NCBI RefSeq assembly: GCF_019923565.1
Contig: NZ_CP074435.1
Coordinates: forward strand, 157,089 to 221,088
Direction of reading: 5' to 3'
DNA length: 64,000 nt
Source of the DNA: Candidatus Schneideria nysicola
Lineage (GTDB): Bacteria; Pseudomonadota; Gammaproteobacteria; Enterobacterales; Enterobacteriaceae
Shown here: piece after piece, positions 45,978 through 48,121 of the stretch
How the letters are laid out: each line of letters starts with the position of its first letter
How positions within the stretch are numbered: the stretch's first letter is position 1
The notes under the pieces: model-generated
The model's database searches: none
Told to the model about the DNA's origin: nothing
Seen by the model: only the letters and a program-made list of their open reading frames with translations
Position numbers and translations under genes: made by a program

Positions 45978-46435
45978 TCAATCATTATAAGGATCTGGAT
46001 AACCAAATTTCTTCATAATTTTTTTTTCTAAATTTTCCATTATTTTAGCATTATTTTCTGTATCATGTATATATCCTAGTAAATGTAATACTCCATGTAT
46101 AAATATATGTGCCCAATGAAATTCACAATTTTTATTATATTTTTTCGCTTCACTTTCAATTATTTTTCTACAGATCACTAAATCACCTATAAGAGGTAAA
46201 TTCATTTCTTTTGGATATTCAAATAAAAAAGTGATAATATTGGTAGGACAATCTTTTCCACGATATTTTTTATTTAACATTTGACTTTCTTGTTCATCAA
46301 CTATACGAATAGTGATTATAGTTGGTCTTCTAAAAAAGTGTTTGATTCCATTTAACCAATATAAAAATTTTTTTTAATTGGTAATCCTATAGTATTTTTA
46401 CAAGATATTTGTAAATTTAGTTGAATTTTATTCAT
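45978..46435 (-). pseudogene. ybeY: Endoribonuclease YbeY with a one-base frameshift in an A8 tract (possibly rescued)
   Basis: YbeY matures the 3' end of 16S rRNA and takes part in ribosome quality control. The locus is split. From ATG 46435 the frame reads M-N-K-I-Q-L-N-L-Q-I-S-C-K and stops soon after eight A residues (coding strand; 46368-46375). The remaining protein, from W-L-N-G-I-K onward, is in the -1 frame. Adding one A restores 152 residues that align without gaps to E. coli YbeY (155 aa), including Y-R-G-K-D, G-D-L-V-I-C-R and the zinc motif H-G-V-L-H-L-L-G-Y-I-H. Only the last 100 residues remain as an ATG-started frame. No other lesion is visible, so the loss is recent, rescued by transcriptional slippage, or a sequencing error. 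Confidence 0.85.
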
Positions 46436-46438
46436 AAT

Positions 46439-48121
46439 TTATTTCCAATTACTACGTAGTTTTACGGTACGATTAAATATTAATTTTTCTGAGCTAGAAC
46501 AATTAATATCAATACAAAAATATCCTACTCTTTCAAATTGATATATCGCACCAGGCTTAGTCGATATGAGACTATTTTCAACATATCCATACTGAGATAA
46601 AAGAGAATTAGGATTGATAAGATGAGAAATAGACTCTATAGAAGACTCTTTTGAGTTATCAGGATCAGGATTAGGATGAAGAAAAAGATTATTATAGAGT
46701 CTAAATTCGGCTGAAATCGATTTTTTAGCTGAAACCCAGTGGATTATACCTCTTACTTCTTTTATATCTCTAATAGATTTATTTAAGGAATTCATATCAC
46801 ATGTACAATAAATAAGAGAAATATTGCCATTTTTATCTTTTTTAACAGAATTGGCTTGAATTATATAAGCATGACGTAATTTAATTTTTTCTCCTAACAC
46901 TAATCTTTTATAGTTTTTATTTGCTTTTTCAAGAAAATCAGAACGATCAATATAAATTGATTGACTAAACATTACTAAACGGTGACCCATATCTGGTTTA
47001 GTAGGATGATTAAACATTGTAATATATTCTTCATAATGAAGAGGTAAATTTTCAAAAACTATTTGAATAGGATTGAGTACAGCTAGGGCACGCGGGGCTG
47101 TTTCATTCAATTCATCTCTAATACATGCTTCTAAAGCAGCTATTTCTAAATAATTCTCTTGTTTAGTTACTCCTATACGATGACAAAACTTACGTATTGA
47201 AGAAGCAGTATACCCTTTTCGTCTAAAACCAGATATAGTTGGCATACGAGGATCATCCCATCCATCAACCACTTTCTCTGTTACTAATAAATTTAATGTA
47301 CGTTTAGACATAACACAATATTTAATATTTAAACGAGAAAATTCATATTGTTTAGGATGAGAAGAAGATCTATGAAGACTAATATGTCTTAATATCCAAT
47401 CATATAAACGTCGATTATCGGCAAATTCTAACGTACATAAAGAATGTGTAATATTTTCTATTGCGTCTGAAATACAATGAGCAAAATCGTATGTAGGATA
47501 AATACACCATTCGTTACCTGTATTATAGTGATGAGAAAATTTTATTCTATAAAGGACTGGATCTCGCAAAATTATAAAAGGAGATGTCATATCAATTTTT
47601 GCTCTTAAACAAGCACTTCCTTCAGAGAATTTTCCTTCTCTCATTTTTGAAAAATAATATAAGTTCTTTTTAATACTACGCTCTCTATAAGGACTATTTT
47701 TTCCCGGAGAAAAAAAATTTCCTCTATATTTACGTATATCTTCTAGAGAGAGTTCATCTACATAAGCTAATCCTTGATGAATAAGTTCAAGTGCATAATC
47801 ATATAGTTTTTTAAAATAATTAGATGTATAACAAATAGAATCTTCATCCAAATCAAAACCTAACCATTTTATATCATGTTGAATAGCATTAACATATTCT
47901 ATATTTTCTTTTTCTGGATTAGTATCATCAAAACGTAAATTACATTTACCTTGATAATCTCTTGCAATTTCGAAATTTAAAAAAATAGATTTTGCATGAC
48001 CAATATGTAAATATCCGTTTGGTTCAGGTGAAAATCGCGTACGAATTACCATATGCGGATTTAAATTTAGATCTTCGTTAATAATATTACAAATAAAATT
48101 TGTTAGAGATTCTTTTTTCAT
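46439..48121 (-). CDS. glnS: Glutaminyl-tRNA synthetase
   Basis: GlnS charges tRNA-Gln directly. The 560-aa class I enzyme has [14 protein letters not shown] (HIGH), V-M-S-K-R (KMSKS) and F-D-D-T-N-P near residue 65, as in E. coli (554 aa). W-D-D-P-R-M-P-T and the two C-terminal beta-barrel domains that read the anticodon are present. It ends 3 nt before the broken ybeY start, so the two are probably co-transcribed. Confidence 0.96.

Follow-up and report, generated by a model that had tools for sequence, protein, structure and literature searches.

Genes broken by frameshifts in poly(A) tracts, and read correctly with the help of transcriptional slippage, have reportedly been described in the insect endosymbionts Buchnera and Blochmannia by Tamas et al. 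in 2008 and by Wernegreen et al. in 2010. For aphid and ant endosymbiont genes with long poly(A) runs, transcript data revealed that slippage restores the frame, with 12–50% of transcripts corrected (PMC5009743), and a value of 30% has been quoted elsewhere (PMC3017870; citations by PMC number refer throughout to excerpts of the papers concerned). A frameshifted ybeY is already in print for Blochmannia turneri, where it is named only as such (PMC4389277). A-run recoding in a housekeeping gene is also known from dnaX (slippage on A9 in Thermus, A_AAA_AAG in E. coli), where the shift yields two useful subunits (PMC3711429). Here, a break of this kind is described in ybeY of Candidatus Schneideria nysicola, within a window of 64,000 nucleotides (the whole stretch of DNA analysed; contig NZ_CP074435.1, positions 157,089 to 221,088) that belongs to a single-contig genome of 572,184 bp with 28.8% GC. 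The hosts of this bacterium, the one species that NCBI taxonomy gives for its genus, are Nysius seed bugs, in agreement with published papers; judged by titles and abstract openings, no report on its genome appeared in the literature search. An earlier note on this DNA had invoked published slippage rescue in Buchnera and Blochmannia; such reports do exist (PMC5009743; PMC3017870), for relatives of Schneideria and not for the same species. As in those relatives, a one-base break in an A/T run of an AT-rich insect symbiont leaves the rest of the gene intact; in contrast to their long runs with transcript data, the Schneideria tract is an A8 known from sequence alone. Unlike dnaX, it would have a fragment of 27 residues as its short product, and a stimulator is not apparent. 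Rescue by slippage, itself an already known phenomenon, is plausible here, and the recurrence of ybeY breaks in other insect symbionts is suggestive of a gene that the cell may still be able to read across the break, and not of a lost one.

The frame break in Schneideria ybeY, together with its conserved remainder, was confirmed as real and not a product of chance. The downstream piece alone scored 107.5 bits against PF02130 (cut-off 25), thus matching the YbeY endoribonuclease family profile, and aligned with E. coli YbeY (1xm5_A) at an E-value of 5.6e-40 without a gap from residue 24 to 150. The first residue after the tract pairs with residue 24 of 1xm5_A. With three lysines counted over the tract, it has the number 24 in the Schneideria protein as well, and the alignment therefore crosses the tract without a gap. 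After frame correction the protein sums to 20 + KKK + 129 = 152 residues, and no lesion other than the A8 break was found in the 152 codons. The −1 frame also keeps YRGKD and HGxxHxxGYxH (as HGVLHLLGYIH), both of which have a role in YbeY, the latter being the metal site. The start, the A8 tract and the stop that follows it had been read in the same way by the earlier note, whose 152-residue protein upon addition of one A and gapless alignment to E. coli YbeY were likewise reproduced; its open, conserved −1 frame is indeed intact, but holds 129 codons rather than about 115. The features concerned, in window coordinates, are as follows.

45978-46435, minus strand: ybeY as a whole, with its start ATG at 46435
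46352..46435, minus strand: upstream piece of ybeY, 27 codons from the ATG to the frame-0 TAA (46352-46354), from sequence reading
46368..46375, minus strand: A8 tract, the point of frame loss, within frame-0 codons AAA AAA AAT TTT; frameshift-aware alignment puts the shift here
45978..46367, minus strand: −1-frame downstream piece of ybeY, made up of 129 codons and a stop, from TTT at 46367 (PF02130, 1xm5_A)
46364..46373, minus strand: two −1 slippery heptamers that overlap, A_AAA_AAT (46373-46367) and A_AAT_TTT (46370-46364), both in frame-0 phase (heptamer classes from PMC4066793)
46385..46388, minus strand: AGGA, a weak Shine-Dalgarno-like word 11 nt upstream of the first heptamer, from sequence reading
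46278..46280, minus strand: earliest ATG, GTG or TTG of the −1 frame, from which a start would give only a 100-residue, N-truncated protein
46019..46027, minus strand: in-frame A9 run near the ybeY 3′ end, from a run scan
46439..48121, minus strand: glnS, an open reading frame (ORF) directly upstream of ybeY

The AGGA may be incidental, its GGA being a conserved Gly codon, and glnS and ybeY are probably co-transcribed. Three candidate features were rejected. A second intact ybeY elsewhere was ruled out by the single PF02130 match genome-wide. Internal re-initiation at 46280 is unlikely to give a functional product, as its 100 residues would be without the N-terminal third. A downstream stem-loop stimulator was also rejected, as pseudoknot-free folding gave a z of −0.47, with 63 of 200 shuffles folding at least as well.

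The recurrence of the break was assessed in a family sample of 295 genomes, 82 of which are at most 900,000 bases (rounded); removal of G101, G221 and G295 and addition of the Schneideria genome gave 80 reduced genomes. Locus DNA was read in 32 of these, which had short or stop-bearing frames or were sisters taken for comparison, and for the other 48 the table entry served, which gave an open frame of at least 148 residues and no stop (G071, G107 and G173 also being open reference ORFs). A PF02130 match above cut-off is present in all 80, in agreement with the earlier view that ybeY is worth keeping. Homopolymer frame breaks were found in 19 of the 80 genomes, spread over 12 of 40 genera. Among the rest, 56 genes appear open, G123 and G201 (masked stretch) are unclassed, G139 and G308 carry an in-frame TGA and G284 has lost a motif. 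One additional break lies outside the 80, in G013 (1.1 Mb), at an A9 and in the same direction; ybeY of G254 is intact. Searches of open-licence full texts brought up, in the excerpts considered, no account of such breaks recurring over 12 genera with one direction prevailing; among the papers considered, a frameshifted ybeY is named only in PMC4389277.

The broken run is an A8 in Schneideria, A9 in G124, G307 and G182, T9 in G268, A10 in G292, G097, G217, G282, G301 and G018, A11 in G154, G240, G312, G133, G184 and G187, and A12 in G205 and G076. Six breaks lie near reference residues 21–25, after the conserved N-terminal Pro (Schneideria, G187, G205, G076, G124, G307), the G018 break being at residue 19 and that of G182 at residue 13. 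Another cluster is found at about 34–41 (G292, G097, G217, G240, G312, G133, G282, G268), and late sites occur at about 65 in G154, 78 in G301 and 103 in G184, this numbering being dependent on the reference. The G182 break, after about 10 codons at an A9 followed by a T8, is the least certain of the 19. The ybeY of G154 breaks in the same direction as that of Schneideria, at an A11 near residue 65 as against an A8 near residue 23. Such scatter points to repeated origin rather than to one ancient programmed site, and the shift site is not conserved among the relatives (residues near 13, 19–25, 34–41, 65, 78 and 103).

Several other states of ybeY were observed in the same set. G284 (L193) has an open frame from which HGxxHxxGYxH has disappeared, and its YbeY may thus be inactive even though the gene is unbroken. 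In G139 and G308 the TGA falls at a conserved Trp of YbeY, and in genus g126 (G125, G235 and G308; about 300 kb) TGA also occurs within the SmpB, Pth and release-factor matches. A prfB search in G125 and G235 returned a single match, below cut-off. UGA may be read as Trp in these tiny Enterobacterales symbionts.

The direction of the breaks is one-sided. In 18 of the 19 ybeY breaks the later frame is −1, the exception being G133, and such breaks would be repaired by one extra RNA base or by a −1 ribosomal step. The same direction was found in all eight broken pth and both broken tmk genes, giving, with ybeY, 28 of 29 breaks or 18 of 19 genus-by-gene events. In the Schneideria genome itself a pgpA break is also −1 and an nlpD break opposite, neither gene being part of the cross-genome survey. 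As polymerase insertions in Buchnera fall mostly within homopolymers (151 of 157; PMC5574713), insertion in an A/T run is the common form of insertion error there, and a one-sided direction is therefore what a filter for rescue would leave.

Control genes from the same 80 genomes were examined for two-piece matches, which numbered 0 of 79 for SmpB, 0 of 80 for Def (deformylase), 2 of 69 plus one decayed copy for Tmk and 8 of 77 for Pth. Against the 19 of 80 for ybeY, Fisher tests gave P values of 1e-6, 1e-6, 2e-4 and 0.03, respectively (uncorrected, and with related genomes). Counted by genus, the 12 of 40 for ybeY compare with 0 of 39 for SmpB, 0 of 40 for Def, 2 of 35 for Tmk and 4 of 39 for Pth (P 2e-4, 2e-4, 0.008 and 0.048). 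The controls were read from tables, except for eight pth loci, one tmk locus and the Schneideria tmk, and the number of A runs per gene was uncontrolled. Internal stops that were not inspected occur in the rows of 13 deformylases, seven single-piece pth, three SmpB and two single-piece tmk; in addition, the SmpB match of G279 ends early and a Tmk match is absent in 11 genomes. Since several broken ybeY hold many runs of at least eight, the gene may simply be run-rich. The pth breaks form a second recurrent target beside ybeY, being split at A9–A11 at nearly the same protein position in 8 of 77 genomes (L214–L221), and for Blochmannia vafer a pth frameshift has been published (PMC3017870).

Selection on the broken genes was assessed in same-genus pairs with the same tract broken. 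For the downstream ybeY piece, eight pairs (two of which include G133) gave a dN/dS of 0.20–0.46 at a dS of 0.32–0.81, and six pth pairs gave 0.27–0.71. Should the breaks date back to the ancestor of each genus, these ratios reflect purifying selection after the break. By its title, the 2010 work of Wernegreen et al. claims purifying selection of this kind for Blochmannia.

The Schneideria genome was also screened for other breaks, by comparison of reference ORFs of G173, G107 and part of G071 with the whole genome, so that genes absent from those references were missed. NlpD, PgpA, HldE and arabinose-5-phosphate isomerase were named by NCBIfam on four reference proteins, and tmk by PF02223. 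Four homopolymer breaks were found, in ybeY (A8), tmk (A10), pgpA (T11) and nlpD (A6), a number within the range of four to eight frameshifted genes per genome given for six Blochmannia genomes (PMC4389277). The tmk gene is split at genome contig positions 407177-407186, in the same direction as ybeY. It is an essential gene. A database Tmk fragment of 148 aa, which carries no source label, starts at the Schneideria gene's own ATT just past the break and differs at two inner residues. The pgpA gene is split in the −1 direction at the longest A/T run of the genome (genome contig 234777-234787), and nlpD in the opposite direction, with one base too many, near genome position 49403, which is more like plain decay. 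Near genome position 337190, hldE appears to have undergone fission, its kinase and transferase lying in two reading frames of which the stop and start overlap, and the arabinose-5-phosphate isomerase gene is decayed. Genome-wide, 344 A/T runs of eight, 96 of nine, 11 of ten and one of eleven were counted, and open frames of about 100 codons or more contained 235 sense-strand A8 runs. A noisy assembly was rejected, as the screen with those reference ORFs found only the four homopolymer breaks, the hldE fission and the one decayed gene. Four further weak candidates were traced to reference start or gene-end calls, and the remaining ones, which largely shared a frame or were short ends, were set aside, as was prfB, which has a natural frameshift.

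Other Schneideria strains were approached through a protein search with the 130-residue downstream piece. It returned 4303 YbeY sequences, of which the best 120 reached at most 61% identity (over 86% of the query), the first row being Photorhabdus at 55%, and no near-identical Schneideria YbeY was among them. GlnS of Schneideria nysicola is present in the same database (four member sequences), 99% identical and differing at 8 of 560 residues, so an intact or truncated Schneideria YbeY is apparently unannotated. Other strains thus probably lack an annotated intact YbeY, which fits, indirectly, with a break common to the strains and a pseudogene call. The divergence of the Schneideria YbeY is itself ordinary: relative to G173, G107 and G071, 42%, 28% and 44% of orthologues, respectively, have a lower identity.

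These observations are read here, at about an even chance, as an inherited one-base break in a ybeY still under selection, from which a minority of full-length YbeY is made by misreading of the A tract. In this scheme, RNA polymerase would slip back on the A8 and add an A, giving A9 transcripts, and ribosomes would possibly assist by a one-base backward step on the overlapping heptamers. Weak polymerase slippage is favoured, with a possible ribosomal contribution alongside, for which in-phase slippery heptamers are present. By either route the protein would have 152 residues and, at position 23, Lys or Asn; the two would make nearly the same protein and are not distinguishable by sequence. The break and its intact remainder are observed, as are the recurrence, the one-sided direction and the low dN/dS in relatives; the occurrence of rescue in Schneideria, its level and the machine responsible are inferred.

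Several points weigh against this reading. The A8 of Schneideria is the shortest run among the 19, the others being A9–A12 or T9, and the longest run in its ybeY is the in-frame A9 (46019-46027) rather than the broken tract; in 4 of the 19 (also in G268, G182 and G124) a longer, unbroken run lies at another place within the gene or at its start. In E. coli, polymerase slippage went undetected below seven Ts or eight As and rescue by insertion was weak (PMC6260861). As the A8 lies at this detection limit and is the shortest of the set, rescue here may be weak. A transcriptome-wide error survey of Buchnera detected no frame-restored transcripts (PMC5574713). Deletion-biased replication slippage would also predict a one-sided direction; under an assumed 80:20 deletion bias, at least 18 of 19 genus-by-gene events would be seen with a P of 0.08. 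Moreover, the nlpD break of the same genome runs in the direction opposite to that of ybeY, and the dN/dS of relatives is uninformative if each tip broke recently.

The chief alternatives are that the gene is dying, that the sequence is wrong or that ribosomes act alone. Under the first, ybeY carries a recent or tolerated break and is being lost, with little or no YbeY made. The more frequent breakage of ybeY than of SmpB, Def or Tmk is as expected of a semi-dispensable gene, nlpD and the arabinose-5-phosphate isomerase gene look broken or decayed in the same genome, and an A8 is a poor slippage site (PMC6260861). Set against these are the YbeY match kept in every one of the 80 reduced genomes, the downstream frames that stay open in eight species pairs at the dS and dN/dS values given above, and the 18 of 19 breaks in one direction; an early pseudogene is accordingly considered unlikely, but a serious contender. 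A sequencing or assembly error, or a mixture of A8 and A9 in the symbiont population, deserves attention, as homopolymers are the usual site of error. Nevertheless, only four homopolymer breaks were found against 235 sense-strand A8 runs in open frames, no close YbeY was found among the best 120 of 4303 matches in a database that does hold Schneideria GlnS, and the same class of break occurs in separate genomes of many lineages, one of them in print (PMC4389277). Such an error or mixture is thus regarded as quite improbable.

Translational rescue, in which the messenger RNA is uniformly A8 and a −1 ribosomal shift on A_AAA_AAT or A_AAT_TTT restores the frame, is consistent with the right phase of both heptamers and with the AGGA 11 nt upstream, and the one-sided direction agrees equally well with a −1 shift. 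In addition, A_AA.U_UU.U belongs to the class H_HH.U_UU.Y, which is among the most efficient in E. coli; without stimulation the best −1 motifs attain about 0.3%, and the list of 18 under-represented patterns exceeding 0.10% without a stimulator contains neither of the two heptamers (PMC4066793). As the only route, it is judged very unlikely.

Beyond the single locus, it can be proposed, as a long shot, that ybeY is a convergent target, many insect-symbiont lineages having put it (and, less so, pth) behind an A run in the repairable direction, where selection keeps it. How much YbeY is made would then be set by how often the expression machinery errs. Because YbeY and Pth serve the ribosome, a shortage of either could raise frameshifting and so restore the supply, in a crude counterpart of the release factor 2 feedback. 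This feedback is purely conjectural, while the recurrence and the direction bias are observed; no YbeY paper was among the ten matches listed of 81 in a literature search for a link to fidelity. Mapped runs of 8–12 bases in the 19 genomes make up a length series for the rescue threshold, with Schneideria at its lower edge. If the proposed rescue is true, 'pseudogene' calls in reduced genomes would be wrong for a predictable class of genes. If full-length YbeY is made, about a quarter of the reduced genomes studied would depend on expression errors for a near-universal ribosome-maturation nuclease.
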